Assembly: GCA_001028815.1 (NCBI GenBank)
Contig: LDJB01000002.1
Span: 248,001-312,000 of the forward strand
Reading direction: 5' to 3'
DNA length: 64,000 nucleotides
DNA from: Peptococcaceae bacterium 1109
GTDB taxonomy: Bacteria; Bacillota; Limnochordia; Darwinibacteriales; Darwinibacteriaceae
A model generated the notes under the pieces. That model worked only from the letters and a program-made list of their open reading frames with translations. It searched no databases and was not told the origin of the DNA. Below, piece by piece: positions 21,593 through 32,563 of the stretch (its first letter is position 1; each line of letters opens with the position of its first letter). The position numbers were made by a program, and so were the translations under genes.

Positions 21593-23833
21593 TTAGAGCC
21601 AGATGGAAACTTCGTCCCGATCCATCTTGGCGATGCACTCCTTGAGCTTGCCGCTCAAGATGGGATCATCCTCCAGCACGGCGTTGCGTACCTGCCGCAA
21701 GAGATCAATCCCCCGGCGGAAGCTGAACACCAAGTCCCCCTCGTCAATGGGGGAATCCTGCAGGATATCTCCAAAGCTTTCCCCTTGGGTCCAGCGGTAA
21801 GCAAGGGCGGCAACGTGATCGTTGAACTGCACTGTGCTGTAGCCCAAGAAACGCTCTTCCATCTTGGTGAGGAAATGGTAGATCTTCTGGACGGGGCCCA
21901 TGTCAATGCGGTGCTTTAAACGGACCTCGTTCTTCCGGGGTTCGTAGCCAATCGACACACACAACGCATTAAGCTCCGCAGGTGAGTAGGAATGGAACAG
22001 CCCTTCCATGAACATTTCCACCACCAAGAGCTCGTGGCCGTGAATCCTGCCGGCAAGCTCCCCTGCGGCGGTGAGGCGATCCCCCTCCAGGTAGCCCAAG
22101 GCGCTAAGCAGGGCCTGTTTATCGTGGAACTCTTGGATATAGCGGTCCCTAGGGTCAAGTCCCCGTTCCCGCTCTAAGAGGCGCTCAAACCGCCTCAAGA
22201 GCCTCCGGAAAATGCGCAGCTCCTTCCTGCAGGTGCGAGGGTCCTTGCCTGTGCAAAACTCTTGCTCCAGCCTATCGAAGCGCTTTTCGAGTGAGCGGAG
22301 TTGAGACTTGAGGCGCCGCTTCCCTTTGCCGTGGCGCTCAGCTGCCAGGCGGATTTCTAGGTCCTGCTTCTTCCGGAGCAGGCTGTCAAATACTGGGGGC
22401 CCATAGCGGGCAAGCTCTTCTAGGACCATCTCCATCTGGATCTGGATAGCATCCCGCTCCGCAAAAGCCTGGTAAGTGGCGAAGTTCTGCCCCAAGATGC
22501 GGTAAATGGTCTCTTGATCGTAGTTGCGAATGAGGTTGACCACAGAGTTGTAGGTGAGGGAAAACTGGCTCTGGAGCGGCTCGATTTCATTCTCATTCAT
22601 GCTGGGGAACTGGGTGGGGTCGAAATAGCTCAGGTCAGCAATGGTGAAGACATAACCTACCGTGTCAATTCCCCGGCGCCCTGCCCGCCCTGCCATCTGG
22701 AAGTACTCACGGTTTGTGAGGGGGCGGAAGCTCACCCCGTCCCACTTAGTGCTGGAATCAAAGCAGACGGTGCGGCAGGGGAAGTTCAGGCCCACCGCAA
22801 AGGTTTCGGTGCAGTAGAGCACTTGGATCAGGCGCTTGGTGAACAGCTCCTCCACGATGTCCTTCAGTACGGGGAGCATGCCCGCGTGATGGTAGGCAAT
22901 CCCCCTCAGGAGAAGCCTGCGCAGAGCGGGCCAGCGTTCGCTCTCAATGGAGGGGTAACGCTGGGCCACTTCCGTGATCACAGCTTGTACCTCTTGGGCC
23001 TGCTCTTCGTCGAGGAAATTGAAGTTATCCCCCAGTTCCAACGCACTAGCCTCGCACTTCCGCCTGCTGAAAGTGAAGAACAAGCAAGGCAGATATCCAT
23101 CTTTGATCCGTTCGATTAGGTCAAGGTGGGTAGTGGGAGAAACGGTGTCAGAAGTTCGCTGCAAATGGCGGGGCAGCGCAAGGAAACTGCTGTACTTCCG
23201 CTTAATCTTGCCGATGGTGGTAAAGCCCAAGGAGCGCTCGAAGAGGGAGTGCTTAAGAGGCACCACCCGCTCATAGTGCTTGATCACTGCCACGGGCCGG
23301 CCTTGGACACTTTCAATCCATCCCGCCAGCTGATCTACGTTGGGGATGGTAGCGCTCAGGCCCAAGAAGCGCATGAAGCCCGGCATAAAGATCAGGCTTT
23401 CTTCCCACACGCTTCCCCGCTGAGGGTCATCAATATAGTGGATTTCATCAAAGATCACATAGCGGACGTCTTTCACCCGCTCCACATCTTCTTGGAGCAT
23501 GTTGCGGAAGATCTCCGTTGTCATAATCAAGATGGGAGCATCAGGGTTGATAACCACGTCCCCTGTAAGGATGCCCACGGCCTCTTCCCCTACATGGGCT
23601 TTGAACTCCTTAAACTTCTGGTTGCTCAGAGCCTTAATGGGGGCGGTGTAAATCACCCTGCCCCCTGATTTGTAAATTTTCTCGATGACATAATCGGCCA
23701 CAAGCGTTTTACCTACACCGGTTGGAGCAGCAACCAATACCGACATGTTTTCATCGATTTTGGCCACCGCTTCTTGTTGAAAGGGATCGAGCACAAACCC
23801 ACGGTAAGTTTGGTGAAGCTGGTGTCTTGTCAA
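21593..23833 (-). CDS. Ski2-like DEAD/DEAH-box helicase
   Basis: 746-residue superfamily 2 helicase of the Ski2/Mtr4/HelY group, likely an RNA helicase in RNA turnover or surveillance. Motifs: Q-motif-like LDPFQQEAV, Walker A APTGVGKT at 36-43, TAPIKALSNQKF, motif II DEIHYIDDPQRG at 129, LGLSATIPN, the second RecA domain FAVGLNFPCRTV, and QMAGRAGRRG. The C-terminal portion has a long basic coiled-coil (KGKRRLKSQLRSLEKRF region) and a DSHCT-like helical end. The start at 23833 overlaps the upstream kinase stop by 4 nt. The TAA stop and the following AAGGAG serve addB. Confidence 0.9.
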   Translation of the reverse strand: MTRHQLHQTYRGFVLDPFQQEAVAKIDENMSVLVAAPTGVGKTLVADYVIEKIYKSGGRVIYTAPIKALSNQKFKEFKAHVGEEAVGILTGDVVINPDAPILIMTTEIFRNMLQEDVERVKDVRYVIFDEIHYIDDPQRGSVWEESLIFMPGFMRFLGLSATIPNVDQLAGWIESVQGRPVAVIKHYERVVPLKHSLFERSLGFTTIGKIKRKYSSFLALPRHLQRTSDTVSPTTHLDLIERIKDGYLPCLFFTFSRRKCEASALELGDNFNFLDEEQAQEVQAVITEVAQRYPSIESERWPALRRLLLRGIAYHHAGMLPVLKDIVEELFTKRLIQVLYCTETFAVGLNFPCRTVCFDSSTKWDGVSFRPLTNREYFQMAGRAGRRGIDTVGYVFTIADLSYFDPTQFPSMNENEIEPLQSQFSLTYNSVVNLIRNYDQETIYRILGQNFATYQAFAERDAIQIQMEMVLEELARYGPPVFDSLLRKKQDLEIRLAAERHGKGKRRLKSQLRSLEKRFDRLEQEFCTGKDPRTCRKELRIFRRLLRRFERLLERERGLDPRDRYIQEFHDKQALLSALGYLEGDRLTAAGELAGRIHGHELLVVEMFMEGLFHSYSPAELNALCVSIGYEPRKNEVRLKHRIDMGPVQKIYHFLTKMEERFLGYSTVQFNDHVAALAYRWTQGESFGDILQDSPIDEGDLVFSFRRGIDLLRQVRNAVLEDDPILSGKLKECIAKMDRDEVSIWL

Positions 23834-25254
23834 CGCGGCCCTCCTATTCCTAGGGATACTTCAGCGGCAAAGGCTGAGGAGGAAATGGTATCACCCATAC
23901 CCACGGTGCTCACAGGATTGGGTACGATATGGGCTGGCGTGAGAATGCAGATGTGATCTTCCCTCTCCATTATCCCCGTGGAAGTGAATTCACTGGTTAT
24001 AGGATATCCAACCTGGCGTGCTTCTTCCGCAAAAGCCTCCAGTTGAGACATTCCTACCTCAGAAAGGGGCACGTTAGCCATCTGGCCCACTGCCTCCCAG
24101 GGAACAGCGCCCCCTTGCTTGGCCTTTACCCCATTTACTGCAGAAGCAAACAAGCAGGCCTGGCGCACTTTCTCTGGGCTGACAGGATAGGGCTTGCGGA
24201 TCAGCACAATATAATAACCGAGGTTGTGCAGGTGCAGCCTAGGGAGGCCGAACTCCCTAAAGAGCCGGAGAGCCCCTTGATAAAGGCTGAAACTCCGCTC
24301 ATCCCGAGCGATCTCCCCTGCCTCTTCCGCAAAGCCCAAGCAGTCCAACGCCCGCATGATTTCCGCTTCATTGATCCCGAAGCTGTGGAAGCGGGGAATG
24401 AGAGCCTTAAGAAGCACAGACTCTTGCTCTGGGTTAGACATGGGCAGGTACTCGCAGTGCAGCCTAAGGTTGGGGTTCCCCGAGCGCAAGGCTGTGAGCT
24501 GCCTGAGACTGAGCTGGATAAACTCCTCTAAGGTCTCTGCCCGCCCCTCAATCCGCCCGTGATGATAACCTGCCATAAACCCGCAGTCCACTGCGGCACC
24601 CACTTCTGGGAGGAACGCCTCCATCTCTTCGGAAAAGCCCATTGCGGCCAAGGGATTACGGGTCCCTAGGATGATGCGGTTGGCCCGGACGGTGGTGACC
24701 ACCCGATCCCCAAAGACATAGGACGTATCTTTGGGGTATTCAAAGATATAGTTTATCTTTGTCCAATCGCTGTTTACTCCATCCCGAATGGGCACCCAGT
24801 TGAGAGCCCCCTCGATGGTTACAGGGAACTTCACCCGGCTGTCGTACATCTCTGCCTGAAGCTTAGACAGGACGGGGTTGTAAACATAGGCATCCCCGCC
24901 CAAGGCGGCCATCTGATTGGCAATAATCCCCGCTTGGCCACCCATGGCTTCGGTATGCTCGGGGAAGTACTGCAAGAACCACTCCCCAAGCTCAGCCTGG
25001 ACGATGTCGTAATAGGACTTCCCCGCAGCCAAGCATTCTTCTAGCAGGGCAAGGAAATGTCCGGGCGTGGACACTGGGCGGCCTGGGAGGCGGCTGTGAT
25101 CGCCTGCCAAGAGCTCGGGATGATCCCGGCAGATAGCAGCCACATCCTCTGGACGCACACTGATCACCATATCCACATTGGCATTAAAGGCGGAAAACAC
25201 TCGGCAGTCGATGGTTGTGGCCACCGCTTCCCGAAGATAGGCGTTCCAACTCAT
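23830..25254 (-). CDS. ADP-dependent sugar kinase (glucokinase/phosphofructokinase family), copy 2
   Basis: 474-residue homologue of the kinase at 4813-6249. Shared blocks include SAFNANVDMVI with Asp 28, AMGGQAGIIANQMAALGG, HNLGYYIVLIRKPY, ACLFASAVNGVKAKQGG and the catalytic STVGMGDTISSSAF with Asp about 455. All key residues of the ADP-dependent glucokinase/phosphofructokinase family are retained. The ATG at 25254 follows AAGGAG located in the last codons of rbsK, and its end overlaps the helicase gene. Position next to ribokinase suggests a sugar-phosphate role, but the substrate is unknown. The two copies differ in most residues outside the motifs, so this is not a recent duplication. Confidence 0.87.
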   Translation of the reverse strand: MSWNAYLREAVATTIDCRVFSAFNANVDMVISVRPEDVAAICRDHPELLAGDHSRLPGRPVSTPGHFLALLEECLAAGKSYYDIVQAELGEWFLQYFPEHTEAMGGQAGIIANQMAALGGDAYVYNPVLSKLQAEMYDSRVKFPVTIEGALNWVPIRDGVNSDWTKINYIFEYPKDTSYVFGDRVVTTVRANRIILGTRNPLAAMGFSEEMEAFLPEVGAAVDCGFMAGYHHGRIEGRAETLEEFIQLSLRQLTALRSGNPNLRLHCEYLPMSNPEQESVLLKALIPRFHSFGINEAEIMRALDCLGFAEEAGEIARDERSFSLYQGALRLFREFGLPRLHLHNLGYYIVLIRKPYPVSPEKVRQACLFASAVNGVKAKQGGAVPWEAVGQMANVPLSEVGMSQLEAFAEEARQVGYPITSEFTSTGIMEREDHICILTPAHIVPNPVSTVGMGDTISSSAFAAEVSLGIGGPR

Positions 25255-27654: not shown

Positions 27655-28694
27655 AAGCCTTGCCCCATAATCCTTCCGGTGGCATCAATTACCGCTTCCA
27701 CATGGGCATCGCTGATCTGGTAGTGGGTCACCAGCCGAATCCTTCTTGGGGATACGGCGTTTGCGAGGATCCCCTCATCCCGCCAGGCCTTGACCAAGCG
27801 GGCACTGTCCCACTGGGAAGCGCGGACTTCCAGGATCACGATGTTGGTTTGGACTTCGCCCACAACCTGCAAACCAGGAATAGACTTGAGTCCCTCGCCC
27901 AGGCGCCTCGCCCGGGCGTGGTCTTCTTTGAGCCTCGCAGGCATCTCTGTGAGGGCGATTAAGCCTGCTGCCGCAAGTACCCCTGCCTGCCGCATGCCCC
28001 CACCCAAAAGCTTCCGGGCTCTCCTTGCCCGGTCAATAAACTCCCTGCTGCCCACTAACACCGAGCCCACCGGCGCGGCCAAGCCTTTGGAAAGGCAGAG
28101 CATCACTGAGTCGAATGGCTGCGCAAGGCGCGCTGGCGGTAAGCCTTGGTAAACCGCGGCGTTCATGAGGCGAGCCCCATCGAGGTGAGCCTTAAGCCCA
28201 AGCTCTTTGGCCCTGCTCACCACCGCATCCACTGCCTCTTGGGGAAGGACTACTCCCCCGGCGCGGTTGTGGGTGTTCTCCAAACAGAACAGGGATGCAG
28301 GGGGAAAATGTATATCCCACGGCCGCACTGCCTGGTCCAACTGTTCTGGAGTGATGCACCCATCGGCAGTTTCGATTAAGCGGGGAATGAGCCCTGCGAT
28401 TCGGGCTAGTCCACCGGCTTCGTAAAAATAAATGTGAGCGTTGGCATCCAAGATCACTTCGTCACCTGGGCGGGTGTGGGCCAGCAGGGCCACAAGGTTT
28501 CCCATGGTCCCACTGCTCACCAAGAGTCCCGCTTCCTTCCCCAAGAGCTGGGCCGCTGTTTCTTCTAGGCGCTTGACTGTGGGGTCTTCCCCGTAAACAT
28601 CATCCCCCACTTCCGCAGCGGCCATCGCCCGGCGCATACCCTCCGTAGGTTGTGTTACCGTATCACTGCGCAGATCAATTAGGTGCCTTTCCAT
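27651..28694 (-). CDS. ltaE: low-specificity L-threonine aldolase
   Basis: PLP enzyme cleaving threonine or allo-threonine to glycine and acetaldehyde. It has 347 residues. Motifs: [19 protein letters not shown] at the N-terminus, [24 protein letters not shown] around the PLP phosphate, [21 protein letters not shown] with the PLP-nitrogen Asp, and [14 protein letters not shown] with the Schiff-base Lys 203. Its ATG overlaps the unknown upstream gene by 20 nt, so translation is coupled. Its product acetaldehyde is also the DeoC product, though no direct link is shown. Confidence 0.94.
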
Positions 28695-30039
28695 TCTCCA
28701 TTCCCCGCTCTCTAAGATACTGCACAGCCCGCTCTAAATAGGGTTGGTACTGCCGCTCAGGTTCAGAGAGGCTAGCTATGGTCTCCTGGAGGAGAGCTTC
28801 GGCCTCTGGCCCGCCAAACCGTGCCACGGCCATGGCCACTTCTTCCTTGCCGTGGCCCCACTGGATCTCTTGAAAAATGTCTGATAATAGGGCGAGCTTC
28901 CTTTTGCCCTTGGATCCCCGGGAGAGGAGATCGGCAAAAACCACAGCTAACCCTGTGTTTTTATAGTTTTTCAGATGCCGGCGCATGGCAGAAACGGCCT
29001 TGCCATCTAAGGAACGGAGCAAGTCCAGCACCACTTGGAATTCTGGATCCCAAGGGTCCAACTTCTCCAAGAGCCTGACAGCCACTTGTGCCGCTTCACG
29101 TACCTTCCACTTCGCGAGGACCGCCGCGGCTTGCTCCAGGAACACTTCGTCCAAATCTGGAGTGACAAGGCGGGCTTCTAAGACCGCGAGCAGGATGTTT
29201 ACCACGGTGGGATCGGGATCAGGCTGGATCTCAGGGAGCTTGCCGTCACGATAGCGGACAAAGAGCTCTTCGAAGAAGCGGTCGTATTCATCCTGGTCCA
29301 AGACGATCCTCAGATCGGTGTAGCCTGTGATGGCTCGGCGGAAATTGCGGAACGCCCCCAGATCTACCACCACGTTGTTCCCGACCTTGGTGCGCTTCTG
29401 GCGCTCCGTAGCAATATCCTCAAAGGGGAAACCGAAATAGGGAGCGACTTTGAAGTTATTAACCATGGTCTGCATCCCCGAAAGGACGATCCGAATGCGT
29501 GGATGAGTAATATGGAGCCAGATGGGGCGAAGATGCTCACCCCTAAGCATCCGGGCCCCCACCAGGCCCAGGATATGATCAATGGCCGAATCCGACGTCC
29601 CGTACAAGCGCTGTTGCCCTTCCCGGAGCAAATCGTCAATGGACGAGTAAGCCTCGTAAATCCCACTGCGGTAATACTCCATCATCTTCCCGTACACCGG
29701 CAGGCGCATCTGGGCAGCATAGGCCGCCCCCCGCACGTAGTGTTCACCCAAGTATTGGATATCCAAAGGGAGGAGGGTGTTGTGCAGCGACTCAATCAAG
29801 CCCCTCAGGGCACTGCTCAGCTCTTCGTAAACCTCTTCTGCACAGTCGTCCCCTTCCAAACTCGCAATAAAGAGCGCGCCGATAGTGAGGAGCTCTACGG
29901 ACGCACCGTAAGCCGCCAGCACTAAGTCTCGCTCGTAGAAGAACATGCTTTCTTTGATTTCGAGGCATGCCGCAATAAAACCGTCAAGGGACGTAATCTC
30001 CTTGACCTCTTGCACCATTTCTCGGTAGTTCCGGTTCAC
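28675..30039 (-). CDS. unknown protein, helical, with HEAT-like C-terminus
   Basis: 454 residues; I do not recognise the family. No signal peptide or membrane segment is visible. The N-terminal third is helical with acidic stretches ([18 protein letters not shown]). The middle contains [18 protein letters not shown] and [18 protein letters not shown]. The last 150 residues look like alpha-helical repeats ([40 protein letters not shown]), typical of HEAT-like scaffolds. The frame is open to ATG 30045, but GGGAG is best spaced for GTG 30039. It sits between rnhA (13 nt upstream) and ltaE (20-nt overlap), so it is certainly expressed in that unit. A regulatory or protein-binding role is a guess. 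Confidence 0.75.
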
Positions 30040-30052
30040 ATGCATACTCCCT

Positions 30053-30508
30053 TCAGTTCATCCCCTTGCGAATGGCCGCCCGGGCCAACTCGTCACAGTG
30101 GTTGTTCCACTTGTTATCGCTGTGTCCCTTCACCTTAATCCACTGGATGGAGTGTTTCTGGGAAAGCTCCACCAACGCTCTCCACAAGTCAGCATTGCTT
30201 ACTGGGGCCCCCCGGGAGTTCCGCCAGCCATTCTTCTGCCAATTGTCAATCCAACCCAGTGTGAACCCGTTGATCAGGTAGGCGCTATCTGAGTATAGTT
30301 TAACGTTACAAGGCTCCTTCAGCTGCTGAAGGCCTTTAACGGCGGCGGTGAGCTCCATCCGTTGGTTGGTGGTGTGCGGTTCGAAACCGGAGAACTCCCG
30401 CACGTGGGGCCCGTGGAGCAGGACAGCTCCCCACCCACCCGGGCCAGGGTTGTTGCTGCACGCGCCGTCGGTGTAAATCTCCACTAGCTTCTTGCCATCT
30501 TTCGCCAC
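30053..30508 (-). CDS. rnhA: ribonuclease HI
   Basis: Cleaves the RNA strand of RNA-DNA hybrids. The 151-residue protein carries the four catalytic acidic residues: IYTDGACSNNPGPGG with Asp 14, RMELTAA with Glu 52, LYSDSAYLI with Asp 74 and CDELAR with Asp 139, plus the flexible-loop His 129 in KGHSDNKWN. It closely resembles the proteobacterial type I enzyme. The GTG start at 30508 is 8 nt after AAGGGG. It heads the rnhA - unknown - ltaE unit, divergent from the RING-like gene. Confidence 0.95.
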   Translation of the reverse strand: MAKDGKKLVEIYTDGACSNNPGPGGWGAVLLHGPHVREFSGFEPHTTNQRMELTAAVKGLQQLKEPCNVKLYSDSAYLINGFTLGWIDNWQKNGWRNSRGAPVSNADLWRALVELSQKHSIQWIKVKGHSDNKWNNHCDELARAAIRKGMN

Positions 30509-30606
30509 TGCTCAAGCCCCTTCTAATAGTATTGGCACCCGTCCACGAATTGTGTTATGTTTAATATAATACCACATTCTATCAAAGAAAGTCGGGGGAG
30601 GTCACC

Positions 30607-31377
30607 ATGGAAGAAAAACTTGAAGTGCTCGCATCAGATTCCCCACAAGTGGGCCGTCCCTGCAACCACTGCGCCCAGGAGTTCGCTCCCGGAGATGAAG
30701 TGGTTGAATGCCCCCGCTGTCACAAGTACCACCATGCGGCCTGCTGGAAAGAGAAGGGCGGGTGCGCGACAAGGGGTTGTCCCCAAGTGGCCCAAGCGGT
30801 GGTGGGGGAAAAGCCCCGTGGTGATGGGCCGCCGCCCCCCATGCCCAAGTGGTACTTCGCGGTTGGTGGTTTGGTTATTCTTGGCCTGATTATGCTTTCT
30901 ATCTTCTGGCCCAAACCGCCGGATCCCGCTGCGGGGCGGACGAAAATTACAGTAATGGACACGTCATACCTGGAGGCACAAGAAACCTTGGTGCCCGCAG
31001 TAGAACAGTTTAACGCGGAGAGCACCACCACCTATATTGACCTGCAGCTCTTACCCAGCGTGGGCCTCAACCAGAAGCTGATTGTGCTCATCGCTGCCGG
31101 GGAAGCCCCGGATATTTTCGCCCTAGATGAGGATCAATTTGCCCAATTTGCCCGGGAAGGGATCTTGCTAGAGCTGGGGCAGACGCCGGAAGGCGAGCCC
31201 ATCTACGGGGTACAGCACCCCGGGCGCCTGGCTAAGCTTGTGATTTGGGGCCAAACCAAAAGCCCTGAGGTTGCCCAGGAAGTCTTAGCCTTTCTCCTAG
31301 AGCACATTCCACCAGTTGATCTAGACAAACTGCGGGAACTCCAATCTGGGCAGGGCTTGCCGTTCATCGGTTTTTGA
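30607..31377 (+). CDS. RING-like zinc finger, membrane segment and solute-binding-protein-like domain fusion
   Basis: 256 residues in three parts. Residues 19-58 carry eight metal ligands in a RING/PHD-like order: Cys 19, 22, 35, 38, His 43 (or 42), Cys 46, 53 and 58, within CNHC, CPRCHKYHHAAC and CATRGC. This resembles prokaryotic RING-finger family 1. A proline-rich linker leads to a membrane segment at about 82-101 (YFAVGGLVILGLIMLSIFW). Residues 112-256 resemble one lobe of an ABC solute-binding protein: ITVMDTSYLEAQETLVPAVE, QKLIVLIAAGEAPDIFALDE and FAREGILLEL. With N-in topology the finger is cytoplasmic and the lobe outside. ATG 30607 follows GGGGGAGG. A GT4 glycosyltransferase gene starts 10 nt after its stop. 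Confidence 0.8.
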   Translation: MEEKLEVLASDSPQVGRPCNHCAQEFAPGDEVVECPRCHKYHHAACWKEKGGCATRGCPQVAQAVVGEKPRGDGPPPPMPKWYFAVGGLVILGLIMLSIFWPKPPDPAAGRTKITVMDTSYLEAQETLVPAVEQFNAESTTTYIDLQLLPSVGLNQKLIVLIAAGEAPDIFALDEDQFAQFAREGILLELGQTPEGEPIYGVQHPGRLAKLVIWGQTKSPEVAQEVLAFLLEHIPPVDLDKLRELQSGQGLPFIGF

Positions 31378-31387
31378 GGAGGCCGCT

Positions 31388-32563
31388 ATGAAAATCGCGT
31401 TTTTCACAGACAGTTATGCACCGTATGTCAGCGGTGTGGTCCGCTCTTTGCAGCGGTTTACAAAGGGCTTAGTCCAGGAAGGGCATGAAGTCTATATTTT
31501 CGCGCCCTTCTATTACGGCAAGAAGTTCAGAGGGGAAATCGCGCAGCAGTCCGATCCGTATGCTACCAAAGTCTTTCGGTTCTATTCAGTGCCCGCGCCC
31601 ACATGCCCTGACTACTTCCTTCCCATTCCCATCTCCATCAGGGCATTCAAAGTACTGCGGGAACTTGACGTGGATATAATCCACACCCATGCGCCGTTCC
31701 TCTCGGGCCAGCTAGGAGCTAATCTAGCCAGGAAGCTGGGTGTGCCCTTGTTCTTTACGCACCATACAGTGTACCAGGAGTATGTCCACTATGTGCCCGC
31801 ACCCCAAAAGGCCACCAAGGCGGTGGTAATCAACTTCCTAAAGTGGTACTGCCGCCAATGCGATCACATCATTGCTCCTACAGAGATGACCCGGGAGATG
31901 ATCTTAGACCTGTATAAGCTCCCCACCCCAGTCACGACTCTGCCTACAGGGGTGGATTTGGATCCCTACGATGATGCGGATCCCACTTGGCTCAGAGCCT
32001 CCCTGGGAATCCCTCAGGAGCAGCCAGTCATCTTGTCCCTAGGGCGGCTGAGCAAGGAAAAGAGCCCTGGGATGCTGCTCCAGGCCTTCAGCATCATCCG
32101 GGAACGCCTGCCGGAAGCGGTTTTCGTCTTTGCTGGGGGCGGCCCCATACGGGAAGCCCTAGAGCAGGATGCCCAGCGGATGGGCTTGGGATCTCACACC
32201 TACTTCACCGGGCCCCTGGATGCAGACCAAGTGGCCGCGGCTTACATGGGGGCAGACTTGTTCATGTTTGCCTCCCAGACTGAAACCCAAGGATTGGTCT
32301 CCTTGGAAGCCATGGCAGGGGGCCTGCCCATCGTTGCCGTTGATGCTAGCGGCACCAACGCTGTGGTGGTTCACGGCAAGACAGGGTTCTTAACACCCCC
32401 AGACCCAGAGGCCCTTGCAGAAAAAGCACTGCAAGTCCTCCAATCCCCTGAGCTAATGGCAGAATTCAGTGCCCAAGCGCGCAAGCAGGCGGAGCAGTAT
32501 AGTGTAACTGCCACCGCCAGCCGCCTGGTTAAGCTGTATGAATCTGTGTTAAACCAGAGCTAA
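31388..32563 (+). CDS. GT4 family glycosyltransferase, glycolipid-type
   Basis: 391-residue GT-B glycosyltransferase of CAZy family GT4. FFTDSYAPYVSGVVRSLQRF at the N-terminus and IIHTHAPFLSG are typical of the diacylglycerol glucosyltransferase (MgdA/UgtP-like) and mannosyltransferase subgroup. The donor site shows ILSLGRLSKEKSP, FAGGGP and the E-x7-E motif in TETQGLVSLEAMAGG. No signal peptide; it probably acts on the inner membrane face. The start ATG follows GAGGAGG. It shares a transcript with the RING-like membrane protein. The TAA overlaps the convergent lemA stop. Acceptor and donor are not determinable here. Confidence 0.88.
   Translation: MKIAFFTDSYAPYVSGVVRSLQRFTKGLVQEGHEVYIFAPFYYGKKFRGEIAQQSDPYATKVFRFYSVPAPTCPDYFLPIPISIRAFKVLRELDVDIIHTHAPFLSGQLGANLARKLGVPLFFTHHTVYQEYVHYVPAPQKATKAVVINFLKWYCRQCDHIIAPTEMTREMILDLYKLPTPVTTLPTGVDLDPYDDADPTWLRASLGIPQEQPVILSLGRLSKEKSPGMLLQAFSIIRERLPEAVFVFAGGGPIREALEQDAQRMGLGSHTYFTGPLDADQVAAAYMGADLFMFASQTETQGLVSLEAMAGGLPIVAVDASGTNAVVVHGKTGFLTPPDPEALAEKALQVLQSPELMAEFSAQARKQAEQYSVTATASRLVKLYESVLNQS

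Follow-up and report, generated by a model that had tools for sequence, protein, structure and literature searches.

The window, a stretch of 64,000 nucleotides from Peptococcaceae bacterium 1109, carries a gene for a membrane protein in which an N-terminal zinc finger of the Prok-RING_1 family is linked through one membrane helix to a single lobe of a sugar-type solute-binding protein (SBP). Conservation throughout a bacterial class, far beyond chance, identifies the finger-lobe architecture as a real protein family. With a probability of about one half, the protein would be a single-pass membrane adaptor or sensor without a role in transport. Computation shows both Pfam domains, the conserved ligands of the finger, the predicted fold of the lobe, the excision of the second lobe, class-wide conservation, purifying selection and the existence of lobes without a finger.

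Gene and overall architecture

The list of open reading frames and reading of the sequence define a frame of 256 codons with an ATG start (Table 1). AlphaFold2 (AF2), supplied with 36 homologues, modelled the complete protein with a mean pLDDT of 91.6 and a pTM of 0.65. At this whole-protein pTM, the placement of the finger relative to the lobe is undefined in the model, which is expected for domains sitting on two sides of a membrane. NCBIfam returned nothing useful for the finger-lobe protein or for its orphan neighbours.

Table 1. Features of the finger-lobe locus, in positions of the window.
Feature	Position	Strand	Evidence
Finger / membrane helix / single SBP lobe, 256-aa protein	30607..31377	+	ORF and ribosome-binding site; Pfam above cut-off; AF2 pLDDT 91.6; full-length in 56/73 class genomes
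Ribosome-binding site GGGGGAGGT	30594..30602	+	Sequence; retained in nearest relative L007
Prok-RING_1 finger, residues 15-62, C4HC3: C19 C22 / C35 C38 / H43 C46 / C53 C58	30649..30792	+	PF14446 39.2 bits; 97-100% conservation
Predicted membrane helix, residues 81-100, conserved flanks GDGPPPP and WPKPPDPAxGRTK	30847..30906	+	AF2 helix; alignment
Lobe I first segment up to hinge, residues 111-200	30937..31206	+	SBP_bac_1 38.5 bits; PDB profile matches; Foldseek
Hinge YGVQHP, residues 200-205, site of missing lobe II	31204..31221	+	Distant homologues DGxIYGIPHP; two-block match to full SBPs
Lobe I re-entry segment (strand, helix, helix), residues 206-248	31222..31350	+	Residues 298-392 in 20/20 full-length SBPs; MBP 266-281
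GT4 glycosyltransferase, 10 bp downstream, facultative neighbour	31388..32563	+	Pfam; NF049988; absent at many orthologous loci
RNase HI, divergent syntenic neighbour	30053..30508	-	Pfam; synteny
456-aa protein without Pfam or NCBIfam family	28675..30045	-	Also neighbour in other families of the class

Zinc finger

The Pfam profile Prok-RING_1 (PF14446) matches residues 15-57 at 39.2 bits against a cut-off of 29.1, and the PHD profile scores under its own cut-off. The eight ordered ligands are conserved at 97-100% and W47 at 100% in a sample of 32 diverse homologues, each below 75% identity. The finger is thus predicted to offer eight Cys/His ligands to two zinc ions. A RING/PHD-type finger in the first 60 residues had been proposed in the initial annotation, which named a missing zinc site as evidence against itself; the profile match and ligands that are invariant or nearly so bear the proposal out. 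The label RING-like holds for the family and not for the order of ligands, which is C4HC3, as in PHD and RINGv fingers, and differs from the C3HC4 of the classical RING.

Other proteins encoded in these genomes also combine Prok-RING_1 with membrane helices. A Prok-RING-like type at L078-L084, from the same order and family, has a finger, a zinc ribbon and several membrane helices in about 320-340 aa. Proteins at L085-L088, from families f12 and f15, consist of a short finger and a single C-terminal membrane helix (about 110-150 aa), and their fingers are close in sequence to that of the finger-lobe family.

Lobe I and the excision of lobe II

SBP_bac_1 (PF01547) matches residues 125-202 at 38.5 bits against a cut-off of 26. 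The coverage amounts to positions 7-85 of a 307-position profile plus a re-entry segment, which agrees with the earlier remark that a lobe of about 145 residues is too short for a two-lobe binding protein. In the alignment of distant homologues, the sequence ...DLTPYLEADPEL...DGxIYGIPHP is followed directly by FAIWALSPNPDTAWDILVMLL. In full-length SBPs, the former covers the last stretch of the first lobe I segment and the hinge, and the latter is the return into lobe I; the hinge motif YGxxHP marks the point where lobe II is skipped.

Twenty full-length SBPs encoded in these genomes served to assess the excision. On 17 of them, the family profile aligned as two colinear blocks, with family positions 71-231 placed approximately on SBP residues 3-205 and family positions 218-255 on SBP residues 268-403. 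When the profile of the second block was used alone, its best match lay in the re-entry helix or zone in all 20 proteins, at scores from 0.3 to 26.8 bits. Shuffled sequences (169 scores) reached 7.3 at most, with 0.7 as the 95th percentile; one real SBP, at 0.3 bits, fell below that percentile, with the position of its match still correct. The second block maps to residues 266-281 of Escherichia coli MBP. Lobe I of MBP, which we take to comprise residues 1-109 and 264-309 approximately, includes these residues in its second segment. Together, the two-block match, the re-entry placement and the mapping to MBP indicate that lobe II is absent as one unit, cut at the hinge, and that a complete lobe I remains. 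The outer domain had earlier been described as part of a solute-binding protein; its being one lobe with SBP_bac_1 homology stands, and what it retains is lobe I in full after removal of lobe II rather than an arbitrary piece.

The AF2 model of the outer part alone (pLDDT 94.5, pTM 0.88) has the strand and helix order of an SBP lobe I and folds as a binding-protein lobe, the fold whose absence had been named as grounds for rejecting the assignment. The Foldseek search was rerun on the lobe alone because the finger and the helix diluted the whole-protein TM-score. The 50 PDB matches listed were either sugar-type SBPs with two lobes or an MBP fusion; alignments ran over about 80-115 columns, with, in the best local ones, about 80 residues superposed at 1.6-2.5 Å. 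With lobe II absent, the protein does not have the two lobes and cleft of an ABC solute-binding protein; one alpha/beta SBP domain makes up its entire putative extracytoplasmic part, as in single-domain SBPs.

Membrane helix and topology

AF2 predicts a single helix between the finger and the lobe (Table 1), in line with the one membrane segment noted at the outset. In the window protein, the charges on its two sides almost balance, and the charge rule alone does not settle the orientation. Zinc fingers of the Prok-RING_1 type are normally cytoplasmic. Because of this, and given that elsewhere the lobe carries a lipid anchor and that it is related to secreted proteins, the lobe is probably outside and the finger inside (N-in topology). 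The same orientation is supported by the single-lobe lipoproteins of other Firmicutes and by a RING-less homologue in genome G025, which has a K/R-rich stretch ahead of its helix. Limnochordia are diderm Firmicutes (PMC11456536), and the lobe would be periplasmic if this is the class of the host.

Distribution, selection and origin

A homologue is present in 53 of 61 relatives, the own genome included, and the family profile found the full-length architecture in 56 of the 73 genomes of the class. The latter number was counted from the listed places; an automatic tally of 59 also took in ordinary SBPs as well as one member without the RING. A single genome outside the class, G238, has the full architecture. 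Compared with the nearest relative, the pN/pS ratio is about 0.2, and it lies at 0.15-0.28 across the finger, the linkers and the lobe in comparisons of the window with its nearest relatives, values that indicate purifying selection on the gene.

The RING-less version in G025 (L069:6089-6640) is a protein of 184 aa with a membrane helix and a lobe, and its gene is still followed by a GT4 gene. Families f64 and f97 encode a single lobe without a finger in frames of 174-224 aa with a lipobox-like cysteine. Such single-lobe SBP lipoproteins, of about 175-220 aa, were seen at L111-L117, L119-L125 and L154. In the tree of origin, built on about 100 columns, the f97 lobes group with the finger-lobe family with a support of 0.90, and the f64 lobes stand beside full SBPs with a support of 0.65. 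Lobe II may, as this tree weakly suggests, have been lost more than once.

Genomic neighbourhood

The glycosyltransferase downstream has NF049988, monoglucosyldiacylglycerol synthase, as its nearest NCBIfam model, at 199 bits and below the cut-off of 400. A GT4 gene follows the finger-lobe gene within about 20 bp in the window and in G001, G005, G007, G023, G024, G025 and G034, and is close to it in G028. It is missing at the locus in G002, G003, G004, G008, G011, G014, G016, G018, G020, G027 and G031. The link to a cotranscribed glycosyltransferase, made in the initial annotation, is weak: the spacing in the window is 10 bp, but about half of the loci examined in the order lack GT4 at this place and keep the finger-lobe gene, which rules out an obligate operon.

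In the own family, the finger-lobe gene lies between the RNase HI gene and LemA/TPM/YigZ/Tex genes. The 456-aa orphan lies nearby in the own order and is conserved close to the gene in families f1, f2, f5, f9 and f10. The recurrent neighbours (RNase HI, the orphan and GT4) point to no single pathway. Neither the window neighbours scanned with Pfam nor the genes adjacent to it in the other loci examined include a permease or an ATPase. A common family for this orphan (neighbour group c2) and the HEAT-like neighbours (c7) was rejected, as the comparison of profiles gave a probability of only 3.8%.

Some other observations were made on these loci. A secreted-looking protein of about 200 aa (c8) is encoded divergently from the finger-lobe gene at L062, L063, L064, L066, L068 and L070, in families f7, f12 and f15; it appears LolA-like by eye, and the two members scanned had no Pfam match. 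At 23830-25254, the window encodes a protein of the ADP-dependent phosphofructokinase/glucokinase type (PF04587, 187 bits). This family is known mainly from archaea, and the gene adjoins one for a PfkB kinase.

The finger-less lipoproteins of f64 are encoded in a run with DUF5693, an M23/PcsB-type hydrolase, a PDZ protein and an S41 protease, in the order DUF5693-CsaB-TagA-transketolase-[lobe]-FtsE-FtsX-PcsB-like-CtpA-PDZ. CsaB, TagA, transketolase and FtsEX are presumed names, given by recognition of the sequences and not by profile search. The f64 lobe genes directly precede the FtsE/FtsX-like genes and the M23 PcsB-type hydrolase gene.

Possible function

As an adaptor or sensor, the protein would expose on the outside the entire lobe I of a sugar-type SBP_bac_1 protein, with lobe II removed at the hinge. 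A lone lobe cannot close on a ligand as a two-lobe protein does; because the open-close motion is missing, it would most likely offer a surface by which an envelope glycan or a partner protein is recognised. The C4HC3 finger at the N-terminus would lie in the cytoplasm and recruit or hold a cytosolic protein. The transmembrane sensing or recruitment suggested in the initial annotation would fit this anatomy. In a variant that we regard as quite unlikely, two anchored lobes would pair face to face and rebuild the ligand clamp between protomers, and this ligand-driven pairing would bring the two cytoplasmic fingers together to recruit an effector.

Two further proposals are special cases or rivals of the adaptor or sensor reading. 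The lobe might bind a division or wall protein and the protein might serve as a scaffold in envelope biogenesis, with GT4 making a glycolipid or an envelope glycan. This is conceivable, if doubtful: the GT4 gene that directly follows here and in several genomes is most like monoglucosyldiacylglycerol synthase, and the f64 lipoproteins lie within the FtsE-FtsX-PcsB-like-CtpA-PDZ run, but GT4 is missing beside the gene at many orthologous loci, and the f64 lobes may, at weak support, result from an independent loss of lobe II, so their context may not transfer. The anchored lobe might also dock on a CUT1 permease, replacing or joining the real SBP, and regulate uptake while the finger signals to the cytosol. 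Although the lobe is closest to CUT1-type sugar-binding proteins, and full proteins of this type are encoded in the same genomes, an importer accessory is unlikely, given that the loci examined have no adjacent permease or ATPase gene and that the surface which a real SBP turns to its transporter takes both lobes, as in the MBP-MalFG complex.

A membrane E3-like ligase, whose RING would transfer a ubiquitin-like modifier upon an outside signal sensed by the lobe, is very improbable. The Prok-RING_1 domain is present, and the C4HC3 order of PHD and RINGv fingers occurs in eukaryotic MARCH-type E3s as well. Against it, Prok-E2_B has no match in the own genome, a single ThiF protein looks ordinary, and no E1, E2 or JAB protein was found among the neighbours. 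UQ_con gave no match, and the control genomes were likewise silent. Ligase function thus appears to be without support in these limited E2 searches (Prok-E2_B and UQ_con). Moreover, prokaryotic RINGs are not all ubiquitin-related, according to a passage in PMC4029887 that cites a 2011 survey. Finally, decay would leave just such a half of an SBP, but a degenerate or chance fusion without function is refuted by conservation: the protein is full-length in 56 of 73 class genomes, pN/pS is alike in finger and lobe at about 0.2, the ligands are invariant, and lobe II has been removed exactly at the hinge.

Comparison with known systems

No description of the combination of finger and lobe was found in open-access text, a scope outside which the 2011 RING survey lies, and an earlier description may exist; nor did open-access text describe excision of lobe II from an SBP_bac_1 protein with lobe I retained. 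Few descriptions exist of natural single-domain SBPs, whose function the literature itself treats as an open question (PMC10601554, PMC10805632). The finger-lobe proteins form a large family that spans the class. Their sequences place the excision of lobe II at the hinge, and their lobe is coupled to a putative cytoplasmic finger, whose partner would give a handle on the role of a lone lobe. They also show reuse of an SBP lobe where no transport operon is recognisable. Should the one-lobe protein be a receptor, it would represent a class of transmembrane receptors made by excising half of a transport protein.

The lobe resembles CUT1 sugar-binding proteins, such as Lmo0181 (5f7v) and MalE, in the sequence and predicted fold of lobe I, and differs from them in lacking lobe II, the hinge crossings and adjoining transporter genes. 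Single lobes of binding proteins made in the laboratory (RBP, HisJ, LAO) also fold alone, but these are engineered (PMC10601554). For some type II SBPs, a separated lobe folds and still binds ligand weakly, and the lobes of ribose-binding protein fold without binding (PMC10601554). A natural SBP cut to one alpha/beta domain is known in RmSBP of Rhodothermus marinus (PDB 5Z6V), which is the C-terminal domain of tryptophan/phenylalanine-binding SBPs, soluble and encoded near chemotaxis receptor genes (PMC10805632). Compared with the published description of RmSBP, the window protein retains lobe I of SBP_bac_1, is anchored in the membrane and is fused to a finger. Its other half is comparable to RBAM_017410 of Bacillus, a membrane protein of 61 aa with a Prok-RING_1 finger and a membrane helix and without a binding-protein lobe (PMC4029887), whereas the finger of the window protein is coupled to an outer domain of 145 residues. 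Each half of the finger-lobe protein thus has a precedent, in membrane-anchored Prok-RING_1 (PMC4029887) and in single-domain SBPs (PMC10805632).
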